Source: Geobacter sp. DSM 9736
Lineage (GTDB): Bacteria; Desulfobacterota; Desulfuromonadia; Geobacterales; Geobacteraceae
Direction: 5' to 3'
Assembly: GCF_900187405.1 (NCBI RefSeq)
Contig: NZ_LT896716.1
Coordinates: 1,674,001-1,738,000 of the forward strand
Length of the DNA: 64,000 nt
Positions 6,361 through 12,386 of this stretch are shown piece after piece (the stretch's first letter is position 1; each line of letters starts with the position of its first letter). The notes beneath the pieces are model-generated. The model worked only from the letters and a program-made list of their open reading frames with translations. It was not told the DNA's origin and ran no database searches. The translations under genes were made by a program, and so were the position numbers.

Positions 6361-6404
6361 TAATTAGATTTTTATCATGCAAATTGCTTTCCCCACAGGC
6401 GCCC

Positions 6405-7115
6405 ATGCCGACTAACAGGACACCAAACAGGCTGCAGGCCCGGGACATCATTCGAGCGATCCCTTTTTTTCGCGACCTTCCGGAAGCGGAATTCGATGAG
6501 ATCGAACGTGTGATTATCAGGAAGAGAATCGCACGCAACCAGATCGTCCTCTTCGAGGAGGACACCGGCAACTTCATGTATATCATCTTCTCCGGCCGGG
6601 TCCGCGTAGTCCATTTAAGCGACGACGGAAAGGAGCAGATCCTGGCAATCCACAAAAGGGGGGAATACTTCGGCGAGATGTCCCTCTTCGACGGCAAGAC
6701 CTCCCCCGCCACCGTCATCTCGATGGAGGAAACAGAGGTAGGGCTTCTTGCAAAACCTGACTTCCAGCGCATAGTCTACCGTAACGCGACCGCCCTCCAC
6801 CACTTCATCGGAATGCTCTGCGACCGGCTGCGGGAGTCGTGGCTCATGCTCAAGATAATGAGTTTCGCCGACGCCGAGCAGCGCGTAAGGGCGGTTCTCA
6901 AGAACATGGGCGCCCTCTACGGCACCAAGGAACAACAGGGGGTGATACTCGCCCTGAAACTCACCCACCGTGACATCGCAAATTACGCCTCCGTCTCCCG
7001 GGAAACCGCCAGCCGCCTCCTCAGCAAATTCGTAAAATCGGGAGAGATAGAAATCCTCCGCAACAAGTTCATCCTCCTCAAGTCCCGTTTCCTCGACAAT
7101 CTCCACGCATTGTGA
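6405..7115 (+). CDS. Crp/Fnr-family transcriptional regulator
   Basis: A 236-residue regulator: cyclic-nucleotide-binding fold (about 15-135, with GEYFGEMSLFDG), a dimerisation helix (NATALHHFIGMLCDRLRESW), and a winged-helix domain with LTHRDIANYASVSRETASRLL. In the ligand pocket the Arg-Ser pair that holds cAMP in E. coli CRP is replaced (KTSPAT), so another effector is likely. No cysteine cluster for an iron-sulphur centre as in FNR is seen. The recognition helix SRETASR keeps the Arg-Glu-x3-Arg contacts that read TGTGA, and two TGTGAC-N4-GTCACA sites lie at its 3' end and downstream. Starts: ATG at 6405; a TTG at 6384 is less likely. Confidence 0.88.
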   Translation: MPTNRTPNRLQARDIIRAIPFFRDLPEAEFDEIERVIIRKRIARNQIVLFEEDTGNFMYIIFSGRVRVVHLSDDGKEQILAIHKRGEYFGEMSLFDGKTSPATVISMEETEVGLLAKPDFQRIVYRNATALHHFIGMLCDRLRESWLMLKIMSFADAEQRVRAVLKNMGALYGTKEQQGVILALKLTHRDIANYASVSRETASRLLSKFVKSGEIEILRNKFILLKSRFLDNLHAL

Positions 7116-7126
7116 CGGCCGTCACA
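7111..7126. promoter_or_regulatory. Crp-type palindrome overlapping the regulator stop codon
   Basis: Perfect palindrome TGTGACGGCCGTCACA, fitting TGTGA-N6-TCACA. It spans the TGA stop of the Crp/Fnr-family gene, so it may act on downstream DNA or as a decoy or roadblock site. Confidence 0.55.
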
Positions 7127-7200
7127 CATTTCCCCTCCTGGTTGCATTATCATGCCACTGCCCATTAACCTCACCCACATGCCGTCAGACTGCCTTTTCA

Positions 7201-7221
7201 AAACAGATTGCACATCTGTTT
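7201..7221. terminator. Hairpin downstream of the Crp/Fnr-family gene
   Basis: AAACAGAT / ATCTGTTT with a 5-base loop, 85 bases after the stop. The T's are inside the stem only, so termination would be weak. Confidence 0.3.
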
Positions 7222-7313
7222 GAGCCGGCAATCCCTGTCCAGTCCGAAATAACAGATTCTGCCTTTGCAATTTAAAGTGGGTGCCCCAACGGAAACGACA
7301 AAAGCGACATCCG

Positions 7314-7329
7314 TGTGACAGGTGTCACA
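7314..7329. promoter_or_regulatory. Crp-type activator site of the riboswitch-controlled operon
   Basis: TGTGACAGGTGTCACA, the second TGTGAC-N4-GTCACA palindrome in 220 bp. Its centre (7321.5) is 41.5 bp upstream of the start site predicted from the TATTAC -10, the exact position of class II Crp-type activation. Confidence 0.6.
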
Positions 7330-7350
7330 CCGTTTTCGAGGTTTTTCCCG

Positions 7351-7363
7351 TATTACTGATGAA
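7351..7363 (+). promoter_or_regulatory. Predicted -10 element and transcription start of the riboswitch leader
   Basis: TATTAC at 7351-7356 followed by a start near A7363. No good -35 hexamer is present, as expected when a Crp-type protein occupies the -41.5 site. Confidence 0.4.
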
Positions 7364-7374
7364 AACAACGGAGC

Positions 7375-7413
7375 GGGACGCTTTTCGGAATGCCGAAAGG
7401 CGGGCGCCGTCCC
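7375..7413 (+). ncRNA. Leader stem-loop upstream of the first riboswitch
   Basis: An outer stem GGGACG / CGTCCC encloses a 10-bp hairpin, CGCTTTTCGG / CCGAAAGGCG (one G-T pair, AATG loop). It begins about 12 bases into the predicted transcript. It might protect the 5' end or help fold the aptamer; it matches no family I know. Confidence 0.4.
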
Positions 7414-7414
7414 A

Positions 7415-7503
7415 GTGATACACGACAATACTAAACCATCCGCGAGGATGGGGCGGAAAGCCTACAGGGTCTCACCGAGACAGCCGGGTTGCCGAAATAT
7501 CAT
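7415..7503 (+). ncRNA. GEMM-I riboswitch, A20 type (predicted 3',3'-cGAMP sensor)
   Basis: The aptamer shows the GEMM-I landmarks in order: ACTAAACC, a GCGA tetraloop hairpin (CCATCC / GGATGG), GCGGAAAGCC, ACAGGGTCT, GAGACAGCC and GGGTTGCCGAAA. P1 is GTGATA (7415-7420) with TATCAT (7498-7503). Aligned on the AAACC block to the Vibrio Vc2 aptamer, the base at position 20 is A and not G. That change marks the GEMM-Ib variants of Geobacter that respond to 3',3'-cGAMP. The aptamer identity is seen; the ligand is a prediction from one key base. Confidence 0.85.
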
Positions 7504-7531
7504 CTCATGATGTTACGGTCCCGGTTTTTTT
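7484..7531 (+). terminator. Intrinsic terminator overlapping the A20 riboswitch
   Basis: A stem of CCGGG / CCCGG, CCG / CGG and ATCAT / ATGAT (7484-7524) is followed by seven T. Its left strand is the conserved 3' segment of the aptamer and the P1 strand, so aptamer folding and terminator folding exclude each other. Ligand binding should therefore allow read-through (an ON switch). Confidence 0.75.
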
Positions 7532-7575
7532 ATGGGGCATGATGATCAGCTAACCGTCCGACAAGGACTTTTAGA

Positions 7576-7673
7576 TATTTGACGAAAAAGGCAAACCACT
7601 CCGAAAGGGTGGGACGCAAAGCCACTGGCCTGACTCCCGAAAACGGGAATGGCGGCAAGGCTGCCGGCAAATG
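7576..7673 (+). ncRNA. GEMM-I riboswitch, G20 type (predicted c-di-GMP sensor)
   Basis: A second aptamer 70 bases after the first terminator: AAGGCAAACC, a GAAA tetraloop hairpin (CCACTC / GGGTGG), GACGCAAAGCC, then the P2 hairpin and GGCTGCCGGCAAA. P1 is ATTTG (7577-7581) with CAAAT (7668-7672). Position 20 is G, as in canonical c-di-GMP aptamers such as Vc2. Tetraloop, receptor and the GCAAAGCC block are all intact. Confidence 0.88.
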
Positions 7674-7711
7674 CACTCCTTCTGTGCATTGCTCAGCCAA
7701 CAGGAAGGAGT
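7671..7711 (+). promoter_or_regulatory. Expression platform with anti-Shine-Dalgarno element
   Basis: A hairpin ATGCAC / GTGCAT (7671-7689) has loop TCCTTCT. The segment ACTCCTTC (7675-7682) is exactly complementary over 8 bases to GAAGGAGT (7704-7711), the ribosome site of the next gene. The hairpin base overlaps the P1 strand of the c-di-GMP aptamer, so ligand binding should change which pairing forms. The direction of control cannot be decided by eye. Confidence 0.55.
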
Positions 7712-7717
7712 ATGTCA

Positions 7718-8443
7718 ATGGATTCATTCAGCACACATCAGCAGCATCATCAGGTTACATCGACCCGGAGCAGCATCAATAGAAGCATGGCATTCCTGTG
7801 CGGATTGTCGCTGCTCTTCTCAGCAACACTTTCCCATGCCTCGCAGGTAACACTCTACTGGGACGCACCCGCAACGTATGCCGACGGCTCGCCGATAACC
7901 GATCTGGCAGGTTACAAGGTCTACGCGGGCAGCTCTTCGGGCAACTACGACCAGCCCGTGGACGTCGGCAATAAAACCTCGCATACCGTTACGAATCTTC
8001 CCGATGAGGGGACTCATTACTTTGCCGTAACGGCTTATGACACAAAAGGGAATGAAAGCGGTTTTTCCAGCGAACTGGCACAGACTTTAGAGCCGACACC
8101 CGAGCCGGCGCCGACGCCGACGCCGGAGCCTGCACCAACACCAGAGCCGACGCCGGCTCCGACACCCGCCCCCGAACCGACGCCGGTCCCTGACCCTACG
8201 CCAGCTCCAGTGGTTAAAGGCATTGCAAAAGGAGACGTCAATGGCGACGGAGTGGTCAACATGCCGGACGTTCTCGCGACATTGAATGCGATCACCGGTA
8301 CCCAGGGCTTAAGTGCAGAGCAGACAAGCAGAGCCGACGTATGGCCCCTGGACTCCAACGGCAAGCCGGCAGGAGACGGGACGGTCACCATGCAGGACCT
8401 TCTGGCAATACTGAAACGGGTCATTCAACCCTCCAGCTGGTAA
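7718..8443 (+). CDS. Secreted FN3-dockerin protein
   Basis: A 241-residue exported protein. After a charged N-terminus of about 24 residues comes a signal peptide (MAFLCGLSLLFSATLSHAS). Then follow a fibronectin type III domain (VTLYWDAPATYADG ... HYFAVTAYDTKGNES), a Pro-Thr-Glu-Ala linker of about 40 residues, and a type I dockerin-like pair of calcium loops (GDVNGDGVVNMPDVLATLN and WPLDSNGKPAGDGTVTMQDLL). Dockerins bind cohesins; none is encoded nearby. ATG at 7718 was chosen because AAGGAG lies 7 bases upstream; the ATG at 7712 is only one base from it. The gene is first in the operon controlled by the two riboswitches. A role in the extracellular matrix is inferred. Confidence 0.82.
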   Translation: MDSFSTHQQHHQVTSTRSSINRSMAFLCGLSLLFSATLSHASQVTLYWDAPATYADGSPITDLAGYKVYAGSSSGNYDQPVDVGNKTSHTVTNLPDEGTHYFAVTAYDTKGNESGFSSELAQTLEPTPEPAPTPTPEPAPTPEPTPAPTPAPEPTPVPDPTPAPVVKGIAKGDVNGDGVVNMPDVLATLNAITGTQGLSAEQTSRADVWPLDSNGKPAGDGTVTMQDLLAILKRVIQPSSW

Positions 8444-8477: not shown

Positions 8478-10706
8478 ATGTCCGACGTACAGATCAGCAC
8501 TGTCCGCAACAAACAGACCAGGCGATTCGTCTCGCTGGCGCTTCTTTCAGTCCTTCTGCTGAACTCGGTGCTGCAGTATCCGGAAGCTCATGGCGCCCAG
8601 ACGACGCTCACATGGGACCACCCGGCTAATCCGGACGGGACCCCTGCGGCAAACGTAGGCGGCTACAAAGTGTATCAGGGAAGCATTCCTGGAAGGTATT
8701 CCCAGAACATCGATATCGGCAATCAGTCCACCTTCACGGTAGATCTTGCAGAGGGAACGACCTACCTTGCAGTTACGGCCTATGATGCCGCAGGAAATGA
8801 AAGTCCCTATTCCAACGAAGTCAGCCGGACCGTTTCACCCGGAAGCACCGGGAGCGCTCCCGGCATTTCCAAAACAGGCTGGCGCCTTCTCTATGCCGAC
8901 AGCCAGGAGCTGAGTGGGGACCCTGGAGCAGCCATCAACGCATTTGACGGCAAAACCGATACGTTCTGGCACACGCAATGGATGAACGGCAACCCGGCGC
9001 CCCCCCACGAAATCCAGATCGACCTGGGGCAGAGCTACAACCTTACGGGGTTCTCGTACCTCCCCCGCCAGAACAGCATCGAGAATGGCCGGATCGCCAG
9101 GTATGAATTCTATGTAACCGACGGGGCAGACTGGAGTACCCCTGTCGCTACAGGAAATTTTTCCAACGACCTCTCTCTGAAGATGGTGTCGTTCCCTGCC
9201 AAGACGGGGAGATACATCCGGCTGCGCGCCCTGTCGGAGGTCAACGGAAACCCCTGGACCAATGCAGCGGAAATCAGCGTCACAGGCACCCCAGGCACCG
9301 GCACTGTGACCTCCTACACCCTCACTGCAACAGCGGGGATCGGCGGATCGATAAGCGCGGTCGGCAACACCGCCATAAGCCAGGGCACCAACCAGACATC
9401 GACCATAACCAGTGTTTCGGTCAACCAGGGCAGCAGCCAGACCTTCTCGATTACACCCGACACAGGGTACCGCATCAGTGATGTAAAGGTTGACGGTGTA
9501 TCGGTGGGCGCGGTAAGCAGTTACACCTTCAACAGCGTGAACGCCGGCCATTCGATAGCCGCGACATTCTCGCAGGTCTCTTCACCTGCGGTCCCGCAAA
9601 CCAACTGGCGGCTCGTATATGCCGACAGTCAGGAACTGGTTGGTGATCCCGGGGCGGCGCTCAATGCCTTCGACGGAAAAAACGACACCTTCTGGCATAC
9701 GCAGTGGATGAACGGTAACCCCGTGCCACCGCATGAGATCCAGATAGACCTTGGTCAAACATACAACCTGGACGGGTTCTCGTATCTGCCGCGTCAGAAC
9801 AACATCCAGAACGGCCGTATCGCCAAATACGAATTCTACGTGAGCAGCAACGGCACAAACTGGGGAACTGCAGTGGCCGCAGGAACCTTTGCCAACGATC
9901 TGACACTGAAATCTATCGGGTTCCCCGCCACGACCGGAAGATACATCCGCCTGCGGGCACTCTCCGAGGTGAATGGTAATCCGTGGACCAACGCTGCCGA
10001 GATCAACGTGACCGGCACCCCTGCCGCCGCAGGCATCCAGAGCTACGCGCTGACTGCAAGCGCAGGAACCGGAGGCAGCATAACTCCTGCCGGGACCACG
10101 ACAGTAGCCGGCGGTAGTTCCAGGACCTATACGATCACACCAAGCGCCGGATACAAAGTGGCCGACGTAAAGGTGGATGGAATCTCGGTCGGCGCAGTCA
10201 CGAGTTATTCCTTCAGCAACGTGACCAAAGACCACTCCATTGCCGCATCCTTCAGCGCGACTTCCGGCAGGGTCGTCTTTGCCACCAACTGTGGAGGAAG
10301 GCAGTTCACCGACTCGAACGGAGTCGTCTACCAGGCGGATACACGCTTCACCGGAGGCGCCACCAACAGCACTGCAACCGCCATAAGCGGAACCGTAGAT
10401 GATCCGCTCTACCAGAGCTGGCGTTACGGAAACGCCACCTACAACGTGCCCGTGAGCAACGGCGACTACATGGTTACCCTGAAGTTTGCCGACTACCACA
10501 CCTCTGCAGGGAAGCGACTGTTCAACGTGGCGATGGAAGGAATCACCGCTATCTCCTCCCTCGACATCTATGGGAAGGCAGGAAGTTCTTACAAGGCATA
10601 CGACGTGACAATACCGGTCACTGTGAAAGATGGAGTGCTTACCATCAGGTTCACAAATCTCGTGGATCAGGCGAAGGTCAATGCCATCGTCGTCTCCACG
10701 AAATAA
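8478..10706 (+). CDS. Secreted FN3-discoidin-malectin multidomain protein
   Basis: 742 residues. Signal peptide (about 14-38, ending EAHG-A), an FN3 domain (about 39-116), then two near-identical modules. Each module is a discoidin/F5-8C-like sugar-binding domain (WRLLYADSQEL ... RYIRLRALSEVNGNPW) followed by a bacterial repeat domain (GGSI ... YTITPSAGYKVADVKVDG ... HSIAASFS). The C-terminus (about 595-742) is a malectin/CBM57-like fold starting VVFATNCGG and ending in IRFTNLVDQAKVNAIVV. No membrane anchor or sorting signal is seen, so it is probably released or matrix-bound. Ribosome site AAAGGAGAG precedes the ATG. It lies 34 bases after the dockerin gene. Binding of cell-surface polysaccharide is inferred from the domains. 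Confidence 0.85.
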   Translation: MSDVQISTVRNKQTRRFVSLALLSVLLLNSVLQYPEAHGAQTTLTWDHPANPDGTPAANVGGYKVYQGSIPGRYSQNIDIGNQSTFTVDLAEGTTYLAVTAYDAAGNESPYSNEVSRTVSPGSTGSAPGISKTGWRLLYADSQELSGDPGAAINAFDGKTDTFWHTQWMNGNPAPPHEIQIDLGQSYNLTGFSYLPRQNSIENGRIARYEFYVTDGADWSTPVATGNFSNDLSLKMVSFPAKTGRYIRLRALSEVNGNPWTNAAEISVTGTPGTGTVTSYTLTATAGIGGSISAVGNTAISQGTNQTSTITSVSVNQGSSQTFSITPDTGYRISDVKVDGVSVGAVSSYTFNSVNAGHSIAATFSQVSSPAVPQTNWRLVYADSQELVGDPGAALNAFDGKNDTFWHTQWMNGNPVPPHEIQIDLGQTYNLDGFSYLPRQNNIQNGRIAKYEFYVSSNGTNWGTAVAAGTFANDLTLKSIGFPATTGRYIRLRALSEVNGNPWTNAAEINVTGTPAAAGIQSYALTASAGTGGSITPAGTTTVAGGSSRTYTITPSAGYKVADVKVDGISVGAVTSYSFSNVTKDHSIAASFSATSGRVVFATNCGGRQFTDSNGVVYQADTRFTGGATNSTATAISGTVDDPLYQSWRYGNATYNVPVSNGDYMVTLKFADYHTSAGKRLFNVAMEGITAISSLDIYGKAGSSYKAYDVTIPVTVKDGVLTIRFTNLVDQAKVNAIVVSTK
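8880..10260 (+). repeat. Tandem duplication of a discoidin plus repeat-domain module
   Basis: The segment 8880-9570 and the segment 9605-10260 encode the same two-domain order with long identical stretches (for example AFDGKxDTFWHTQWMNGNP and RYIRLRALSEVNGNPWTNAAEI in both). The DNA has diverged at synonymous sites, so the duplication is not very recent. Confidence 0.8.
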
Positions 10707-10778
10707 GAAAGGATGGAAAAGGTAATGAATTTGTACTCGAAAACGACGGAAAAACCGATATACTCCGGGAGATCAATT

Positions 10779-12386
10779 ATGAAAACTTCGATGCGTATAT
10801 TCCCCCTGCTGATAGTTTCGCTCATGCTCAACGCCGTAATGGCTTCGGCAAGCTGGGGGGCCACCTTTTACCTCGCCCCCAACGGCAACGACACCACAGG
10901 TGACGGCAGCCAGAACAGACCGTGGCGCTCCCTCTCCTACGCCTGCTCACGGGTAACGACCCCCGGCGACACCATTTACATCGGCCCGGGTAACTATACC
11001 GACAACGGCCGCTGCAACCTTGCAGTTGGAGTAAGCATTGCCGGTGCAGGATCGGGAACCACAAAGATCACTTCCGCTTATAACGGCGGAATGGGTACGG
11101 GCTATATTTTCCGTGATACCCAACCGACGAATCCGCTCATGCTCGGCAACAACGAGATCAGCGGTTTCACCCTGGACGGCAGCAACAAAACCCTGATGAC
11201 AGGTGTCTTTATCCGCGGATCGAGCAACCTCAGCATACACGACATGAAGTTCCAGAGCATCAAGGTGAGCGCCATCTGGATCGAAGGATATTACAACTGG
11301 TCCAACCACGAGACGACTCAGCCTCCTGCTTACGCGAAAAACGTAGCAATATACAACGTAGAAACCTATGACACGACCTCAGAGGCTAACTACGGCTGGG
11401 GAGACAGGCTCGGCGCATTCTTCTTCGGCGCACTGGAAAACGCCCAGATATACAACATCACCATCAACGAGGCCATGGCTTCCCGCGGCACCGGGATCAA
11501 GGCAGTATCGGGCTGGCTCAAGAACTTCAAAGGGTATAACTGGAATATCAAGACCAACGTTGAAAACGGCGATGCTTTCGTATTCGAGATGTATAACTTC
11601 CTCGGTGACTCCGAGATCTACAACTGCGTCTTCAACCACGCGCTCTCCCTGAACAGCGGTCCGCAGACGCCTGTACAGGGAAGCACCTGGAACCTGAAGA
11701 TTCATGACACCAAAACCGACTTCTCCGGGTTCACCAGAGGGGCACTGGGTCACGAGCTGTCCCATAACCACCTTGACTTCTACAACAACTATATATACGG
11801 CAACAGGGGACGCGGCGCGGGCCTCTGGACCACCAACTACCTGACCGCCGGTTCCGTAACAGGATGGAGATTCCGCAACAACATCGTACAGAACTGCTCC
11901 GCAGGAGGCCTGACCATCGACCGCGGAAACCTCTACAACATTCAGGTGTACAACAACATCTTCGACACGATGTCCAGTTCGCCTTACGGCGGGTATGGCA
12001 TCAGCACTGACGGGTTTAACGGTCAGCTGTCAGGAATGAAAATCCAGAACAACGTGTTCATGAACTGTGCTGCCGCACCGATCTATCTCACTGCAAGTGT
12101 GACTAACGCGCTGATCGACCATAACATTTTCTACAACAACGGCAACGGCAACAACGTAAACGCAGCAAGTGCAAGTACTATTCAGTCCAACAACATCAAG
12201 GGCACGGTCCCCGGCCTCGTCTACTCCGGCAACAGGCCGGACCCTTACTACCAGTTGAGCAAGAGTTCCAACCTTCTTGACGCAGGCGTCGACGTAGGTC
12301 TGCCCTACTCAGGAAAGGCACCGGACATCGGAGCAATCGAGTACCAGGCCTTTCCTCCCCCGAGGAACCTGCGCTTGACTCCGTAA
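10779..12386 (+). CDS. Secreted right-handed beta-helix protein
   Basis: A 535-residue exported protein with a signal peptide (MKTSMRIFPLLIVSLMLNAV ... ASA). It then begins TFYLAPNGNDTTGDGSQNRPWRSLSYA, the DUF1565-type opening of parallel beta-helix polysaccharide-acting proteins. Repeating short strands with Asn ladders follow (FRNNIVQN, VYNNIFDT, IQNNVFMN, IDHNIFYNNG), and it closes with PDIGAIEYQ, typical of this class. It may be a polysaccharide lyase, epimerase or binding protein; no catalytic residues can be named. The start was chosen for GGGAG 7 bases upstream and for the signal peptide; an in-frame extension to 10713 exists. Last gene of the riboswitch operon, ending in a strong terminator. 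Confidence 0.82.
   Translation: MKTSMRIFPLLIVSLMLNAVMASASWGATFYLAPNGNDTTGDGSQNRPWRSLSYACSRVTTPGDTIYIGPGNYTDNGRCNLAVGVSIAGAGSGTTKITSAYNGGMGTGYIFRDTQPTNPLMLGNNEISGFTLDGSNKTLMTGVFIRGSSNLSIHDMKFQSIKVSAIWIEGYYNWSNHETTQPPAYAKNVAIYNVETYDTTSEANYGWGDRLGAFFFGALENAQIYNITINEAMASRGTGIKAVSGWLKNFKGYNWNIKTNVENGDAFVFEMYNFLGDSEIYNCVFNHALSLNSGPQTPVQGSTWNLKIHDTKTDFSGFTRGALGHELSHNHLDFYNNYIYGNRGRGAGLWTTNYLTAGSVTGWRFRNNIVQNCSAGGLTIDRGNLYNIQVYNNIFDTMSSSPYGGYGISTDGFNGQLSGMKIQNNVFMNCAAAPIYLTASVTNALIDHNIFYNNGNGNNVNAASASTIQSNNIKGTVPGLVYSGNRPDPYYQLSKSSNLLDAGVDVGLPYSGKAPDIGAIEYQAFPPPRNLRLTP

Follow-up and report, generated by a model that had tools for sequence, protein, structure and literature searches.

The window, the 64 kb stretch of the Geobacter sp. 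DSM 9736 genome (3,957,683 bases in one contig) analyzed here, contains a leader with two GEMM-I riboswitch aptamers, located between a regulator gene and three genes for secreted proteins, all on the + strand. The gene directly 5' of the leader (6384..7115) encodes a CRP/FNR-family regulator with a cNMP-binding domain and a Crp helix-turn-helix domain (Pfam PF00027, 2.5e-23; PF13545, 2.7e-11). Downstream of the leader, gene 1 (7718..8443, with a second in-frame ATG at 7712) encodes a secreted protein in which a dockerin I domain (PF00404, 1.1e-07) is combined with a fibronectin III-like domain, the fibronectin III match scoring 20.4 bits, under the Pfam cut-off of 25. Gene 2 (8478..10706) encodes a secreted protein that carries a malectin domain (PF11721, 4.8e-29) besides two discoidin (F5/8 type C) domains (PF00754, 5.9e-52, in two stretches), and gene 3 (10713..12386) a secreted right-handed beta-helix protein (PF13229, 4.2e-08).

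Two CRP/FNR-like palindromes of putative regulatory function accompany the regulator gene, neither assigned to a strand: TGTGAC-N4-GTCACA at 7111..7126, overlapping the end of the gene, and a second one at 7314..7329, 86 bases 5' of aptamer 1. A homologue of the CRP-family gene was found upstream in two of 16 other loci by tblastn, in genomes G030 (locus L118, 65% identity) and G003 (L117, 60%). A palindrome of the TGTGAC-N4-GTCACA type and a looser one (positions 956 and 1199 of L118) lie between the CRP-family gene and aptamer 1 in G030. A protein regulator of the CRP/FNR family may be a third input to the secreted-protein operon. A simple scan for sigma-70 promoter-like sites, other promoter types being outside its scope, returned none at 7100-7760; on this result a sigma-70 promoter between the aptamers, by which aptamer 1 would be bypassed, was rejected, the scan being equally blank 5' of aptamer 1.

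Two GEMM-I aptamers of different subclass

Exactly two Rfam 15 matches were found in the window using cmscan with curated cut-offs, both to RF01051 and on the + strand, namely aptamer 1 at 7420-7496 (46.2 bits, E 7.4e-06) and aptamer 2 at 7580-7668 (71.0 bits, E 6.3e-12), each covering positions 1-87 of the 87 in the model. The curated cut-off of RF01051 is 35 bits; the original prediction of two complete GEMM-I aptamers thus held in the Infernal covariance-model search that it had proposed as a check, and a chance match was rejected. Position 20, where we equate the aligned site with nucleotide 20 of the literature by our own reading of the Rfam alignment, is A (7430) in aptamer 1 and G (7590) in aptamer 2. 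Beside this position aptamer 1 has the C-U / G-G pairing common to all 14 aligned A20 sequences, and aptamer 2 has G-C / G-C.

Covariance models of the two subclasses, R2 from 14 A20 aptamers (89% mean column identity, A20 invariant) and R1 from 10 G20 aptamers of the type of aptamer 2, were run over 73 sources and separated the two aptamers sharply, each of which is in the training set of its own subclass model: aptamer 1 (7416..7504) scored 113.0 bits with R2 and 35.2 bits with R1, and aptamer 2 (7576..7673) scored 88.5 bits with R1 and 36.2 bits with R2. Among aptamers outside the training sets, R2 scored the first aptamers of G004 at 106, G006 at 105, G034 at 102 and 96, G037 at 98 and 100, and G003 at 98, and R1 scored the G20 aptamers of G040 and G122 at 102 each. 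These scores led us to reject a same-class tandem and bear out the A20-then-G20 assignment made originally. The proposed span (7415-7673) also agrees with the model spans, as does the proposed distance of about 70 bases, there being 71 nt between the model spans and 83 nt between the Rfam matches.

Compensatory changes in related genera support the helices of aptamer 2. Across the R1 set, 94.6% of the helix cells, P1 included, are paired, and 10 of 28 pairs have changed on both sides, a count that none of 500 shuffles reached; the count of further pair types was reached by 30 of 500. P1 itself (7577-7584 with 7665-7672 in the window, with one A-G mismatch) has 88.3% of its cells paired and four of six counted pairs changed on both sides, the outer pair being the weakest counted and unpaired in five of the 10 sequences. 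Aptamer 2 also has the top score (71 bits) of the 13 GEMM-I matches in its own genome, 12 of which exceed the cut-off and nine of which have A20 by inspection, and the window pair is the sole mixed A20/G20 pair among them. The compensatory changes and the top score argue against aptamer 2 being decayed or a mere structural spacer that leaves aptamer 1 alone in control. That a GEMM-I pocket can drift is indicated by two aptamers with C at position 20, one in the same genome (G000:C1:2815505-2815591, - strand) and one the second aptamer of locus L179 in G038, yet we regard decay of aptamer 2 as very improbable.

Two other tandems are present in the same genome (G000:C1:232085-232353 and 986948-987233), both A20-A20; every aptamer in them is followed, by eye, by a stem end resembling that of a terminator and by a T run. 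Such A20-A20 tandems are common and, together with the several tandems of G. sulfurreducens and an omcST riboswitch reported to sense both ligands in the available text of PMC6456294, they give some weight to the possibility that both window aptamers respond in vivo to the same dinucleotide, e.g., cGAMP at different affinities, like the pseudo-cooperative tandem GEMM-Ib riboswitches. This is nonetheless quite unlikely given the subclass scores (113/35 against 36/88.5 bits), the different expression platforms described below (a terminator and a Shine-Dalgarno (SD) sequence), and the report, in the same available text, that an A-to-G change at nucleotide 20 made a GEMM-Ib aptamer recognize c-di-GMP in place of cGAMP (PMC6456294).

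Conservation of the A20-then-G20 order

A search with R1 over 138 genomes of the order yielded 115 hits with E no higher than 1e-9. Twelve of them, in 11 genomes, score at least 88 bits and constitute the G20 subfamily, the next hit scoring 71 bits. Kept outside the subfamily counts are G084 (70.9 bits), which is cited where it disagrees, and G243 (81.3 bits), the one additional hit from a class search over 277 genomes, which is followed by a different type of protein (by eye) and lacks an A20 aptamer in the 2101 bases covered. Searches of more than 40 genomes were run with stricter filters, with loss of weak matches. An A20 aptamer (R2 at least 85 bits) lies less than 500 nt upstream on the same strand in 10 of the 12 subfamily members, those of G000 (the window), G003, G004, G005, G006, G030 contig 26, G034, G037, G118 and G122; two A20 aptamers stand in front of the G20 aptamer in G030, G034 and G037. 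It is absent in G040 (1500 nt available) and in G030 contig 70 (hereafter G030b, with 497 nt of contig).

The check for an upstream A20 aptamer covered 74 of the 115 hits, i.e., the 12 subfamily members and 62 others, one of which (L169) is itself an A20 aptamer and a few of which (L142, L144) have short upstream flanks. Only four of the 62 (L082, L136, L176 and L179) have an upstream A20 aptamer (Fisher 9e-08 for the subfamily against the other hits, computed with 61 others in place of 62). In the course of this upstream check, no A20 aptamer was noticed within 500 nt downstream of the G20 aptamer in the 74 surroundings. A single DNA pattern for the A20-then-G20 arrangement found only three of the 138 genomes because it requires the exact motif and spacing. 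A model from three sequences (R3) retrieved mostly ordinary GEMM-I, none of the 27 R3 loci outside the training loci having an A20 match of at least 70 bits; A20/G20 counts from RF01051 and R3 are counts among the matches listed and not a census. The mixed tandem is real and conserved.

At its start, as in the window, the gene downstream of each G20 subfamily member encodes a signal-like stretch followed by a module resembling fibronectin III (by eye). The frame of the secreted protein extends without a stop upstream into aptamer 2 at L043 (G030 contig 26) and L124 (G122), probably by chance. A scan of the named genomes with the gene 1 protein led to 19 loci encoding distantly similar dockerin or repeat proteins; none of these loci contains an R1 or R2 match at E up to 0.01.

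The Geobacter sp. DSM 9736 genome has 20 GGDEF matches, and the 18 that could be read at the base-selecting site comprise 16 with Asp and two with Ser, the site being unreadable by motif in the remaining two (L108 and L111). One Ser protein is GacA-like, with a REC-GAF-GGDEF layout (by eye) that, together with its signature, we take to be that of the Hypr enzyme GacA. The other carries GGDDF, as does GSU1937, an active Hypr enzyme according to the accessible part of PMC8835794. The original reading of two predicted specificities in one leader is therefore supported by the A20/G20 marker, by the subclass models and by conservation of the order in other genera, and it also fits a genome with a GacA-like Hypr GGDEF protein and canonical GGDEF proteins. 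It is the best reading of these sequences, with 3',3'-cGAMP as the predicted ligand of aptamer 1 and c-di-GMP as that of aptamer 2.

Expression platform of aptamer 1

Aptamer 1 shares its 3' strand with an intrinsic terminator (7482..7531, + strand) composed of a stem at 7482-7526 and a U7 tract at 7525-7531, with a folding energy of -23.3 kcal/mol that none of 200 shuffles equaled. A simple terminator scan left this element unflagged, its one hit at 7100-7760 being on the other strand. In the ten mixed pairs, the A20 aptamer that precedes aptamer 2 is followed, by eye, by a stem end of the CCCGG type and then by a T run, which is interrupted in G005. The GEMM-Ib riboswitches of pgcA (GSU1761) and pilM in Geobacter, as described in the available text of PMC6456294 and PMC9262584, are like aptamer 1 in having A20 and a 3' strand that is part of an intrinsic terminator, and are cGAMP ON switches in which the ligand prevents termination. 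Since the terminator overlapping aptamer 1 has this known design, an ON sign is predicted for it. In the same descriptions the pgcA and pilM leaders contain single aptamers or a GEMM-Ib tandem, whereas the window leader adds a G20 aptamer with another platform.

Predicted expression platform of aptamer 2

A terminator behind aptamer 2 was rejected because no T run longer than four lies between the aptamer and the SD sequence in any of the 12 subfamily members. Within 120 nt past the aptamer end, a run of at least five T occurs in only two of the 12, both times beyond the SD sequence, versus 38 of 58 other R1 hits (the 62 minus the four with upstream A20). In the window, the SD sequence AGGAAGGAG (7702..7710, + strand; assigned from sequence) is preceded by an anti-SD strand (7675-7687) with two alternative partners. 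In the predicted ligand-bound state it pairs with the SD strand (7696-7711) to give a sequestor hairpin (7675..7711), which appears in the fold and in the complementarity of homologues. In the predicted ligand-free state the P1 3' strand is taken up by a P4 hairpin (7659..7698), seen in the minimum-energy fold up to the SD sequence, whose loop and upper stem contain the anti-SD strand.

All 12 members have a strand that is complementary to the SD region of the same leader. These anti-SD strands form duplexes of -17.0 kcal/mol on average with their own SD strands and of -13.5 kcal/mol when partners are exchanged between groups, the own pair being better than every between-group swap in only six of the 12. 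Compared with shuffled sequences, at most seven of 500 were as good in nine of the 12 members, while the pairing is non-significant when taken alone in the window (56 of 500), G030b (28) and G040 (115). Pairing of the anti-SD with an upstream strand was considered and rejected, the shuffle count among the 12 members being low only in G122 (10 of 300) and, weakly, in G006 (29 of 300).

When the leaders were folded up to but excluding the SD sequence, P1 was excluded in all 12 members, and P4 took four or five bases of the P1 3' strand in 10 of them; the locked pairs of the other two, G034 and G037, leave the P1 strand untouched. The cost of forming P1 is 0.5 to 4.8 kcal/mol at the aptamer end, before the downstream sequence, and 5.9 to 11.6 kcal/mol at the SD sequence. 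The part of this cost that is added by the downstream sequence lies above the average of the shuffles at 11 of 12 loci, but the excess is modest and rarely extreme at a single locus, with two to 30 of 60 shuffles as high.

A different G20 aptamer follows an A20 aptamer with a terminator-like stem at three of the four loci outside the subfamily, L082 (G034 contig 63), L136 (G124) and L176 (G131). At these loci, which form a second lineage, the sequence CUGUUUC occurs twice, once as the 5' strand of P1 and again, as an identical copy, within the P4 3' strand, the anti-SD strand lying in between; the P1 3' strand is therefore able to pair with either copy. Folding with P1 or P4 locked gave SD openness of 0.01 and 0.50 for L136, 0.05 and 0.53 for L176, and 0.04 and 0.37 for L082, respectively. 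The fourth locus, L179 (G038), has three A20 aptamers followed by the divergent C20 aptamer and an anti-SD strand (by eye).

The SD sequence is more open with P4 locked than with P1 locked in 11 of the 12 subfamily members and in all three second-lineage loci, 14 of 15 in total, in a comparison that is biased toward P4 because the locked pairs were drawn from each prefix fold. Openness in the window is 0.79 with P4 locked and 0.14 with P1 locked. G006, counted as agreeing, is a near tie (0.42 with P4 locked, 0.40 with P1 locked); the opposite result was obtained for G030b (0.09 with P4 locked, 0.34 with P1 locked) and for the weaker hit G084 outside the subfamily (0.21 and 0.37). Since P1 locking closes the SD sequence more in 14 of the 15 loci, c-di-GMP is predicted to switch translation off. 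At equilibrium the full window leader is closed both ways, with an unpaired SD fraction of 0.22 without ligand and 0.14 with P1 locked, and the switch would therefore have to be kinetic or rely on competition by the ribosome.

That equilibrium result can also be read in favor of a two-ligand AND gate, in which both aptamers would be ON switches, c-di-GMP would open the SD sequence, and the operon would need both dinucleotides: a leader whose full-length fold is closed without ligand would benefit from ligand-driven opening, and G030b and G084 behave as such a gate would require. Against it are the greater closure upon P1 locking in 14 of 15 loci and the strand common to P1 and P4 in 10 of the 12 members, and the gate would rarely be open if cGAMP and c-di-GMP move oppositely, as the available portions of PMC12285248 and PMC6456294 indicate. 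We therefore consider the AND gate unlikely.

Thirteen of 16 related loci, among them L136 and L176 (both AAGGAGGUGA), L053 and L124, carry an SD-like box (GGAGG or GAGGU) 23-44 nt 5' of aptamer 2; it is absent in the window, G118 and L082. Shuffled sequences gave a mean of 2.4 and a maximum of 8 in 16, and three of the 58 other R1 hits carry the box. Most loci inspected have no well-placed start codon for it, and it could be a ribosome standby site.

Proposed gate logic

A terminator behind aptamer 1 and SD sequestration behind aptamer 2 imply opposite signs. Our favored reading, which we hold to be reasonably probable, is a serial gate in which transcription is switched on by cGAMP and translation is then switched off by c-di-GMP. 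Transcription would proceed past aptamer 1 only with 3',3'-cGAMP bound; without it, the 3' strand of aptamer 1 would be released into the terminator at 7482-7531. In transcripts that pass this point and are free of c-di-GMP, P4 would capture the P1 3' strand and hold the anti-SD strand, leaving the SD sequence free, and it would fold first, ahead of SD synthesis, unless ligand had already fixed P1. With c-di-GMP bound, P1 would form and P4 would be barred, so that the freed anti-SD strand could pair with the SD sequence and block translation. Under this scheme the secreted-protein operon would be on in the presence of cGAMP and at low c-di-GMP, i.e., cGAMP AND NOT c-di-GMP.

The physiology of the two dinucleotides in Geobacter is compatible with such a gate. 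In the available text of PMC12285248, the levels of c-di-GMP and cGAMP in G. metallireducens are inverse, and in that of PMC6456294 the two are described as opposing in G. sulfurreducens; reportedly they also favor distinct types of contact with surfaces. Inverse levels would suit a gate that requires one dinucleotide and is shut by the other. We give about even chances to the wider proposal that the leader is a natural RNA comparator of sibling messengers, with opposite signs and two G20 lineages, through which the secreted proteins would be made only while cGAMP prevails. As there are distinct G20 lineages, one being the subfamily of the window and the other that with CUGUUUC, such a comparator was perhaps built twice.

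Relation to known riboswitch systems

The mixed tandem is made of known parts, and the predicted sign is the main addition to the earlier reading. Aptamer 2 matches the full c-di-GMP-I model (RF01051) and has G20; it differs from that class in being predicted to act on the SD sequence through exchange of P1, P4 and anti-SD strands, behind a cGAMP switch. Tandem c-di-GMP-I and GEMM-Ib leaders likewise have two GEMM-I aptamers in one 5' UTR, but for the window pair different ligands and opposite signs are predicted, and its two aptamers of different subclass with separate platforms constitute a predicted two-input gate architecture. In the bi-mechanism SAM-II/SAM-V tandem, two mechanisms stand in series in one leader and respond to one ligand. 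The window leader also has two mechanisms in series, but with two predicted ligands.

The SAM-II/SAM-V tandem is named in the accessible part of a tandem-riboswitch survey from 2022 (PMC9481103), which also describes A AND NOT B gates (ZTP/THF-I, ZTP/glycine and Na+/c-di-AMP). As in the window leader, an independent ON switch is followed in these gates by an independent OFF switch; unlike them, the window leader has sensors from one aptamer family that would act at two levels, transcription and then translation. The survey further lists AdoCbl / c-AMP-GMP and AdoCbl / c-di-GMP-I clusters in Desulfobacca acetoxidans, which resemble the present case in that A- or G-type GEMM-I aptamers are used in logic devices of one genome, but which pair a dinucleotide with AdoCbl where the window leader joins two dinucleotides (PMC9481103).

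The cGAMP/c-di-GMP pair is absent from the two-input gate table in the accessible part of the same survey, which counts 347 doublets and 12 triplets of c-di-GMP-I (PMC9481103); mixed pairs could hide among these doublets, given that the c-di-GMP-I family also captures cGAMP aptamers. A contiguous-riboswitch survey from 2025 treated the Rfam c-di-GMP classes as a single family, and its main text, in the form available to us, mentions neither cGAMP nor Geobacter. In the accessible portions of the open literature, a scope outside which the founding 2015 papers (Kellenberger, Nelson) lie, we found no report of a mixed A20/G20 pair.

If the proposal is true, the leader would be a hard-wired decision element between the cGAMP and c-di-GMP programmes. 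It would add a new input pair to natural riboswitch logic and provide a ready two-input sensor, and it would illustrate how, once an aptamer has been duplicated, a minor alteration can supply a single gene with inputs of opposite sign.
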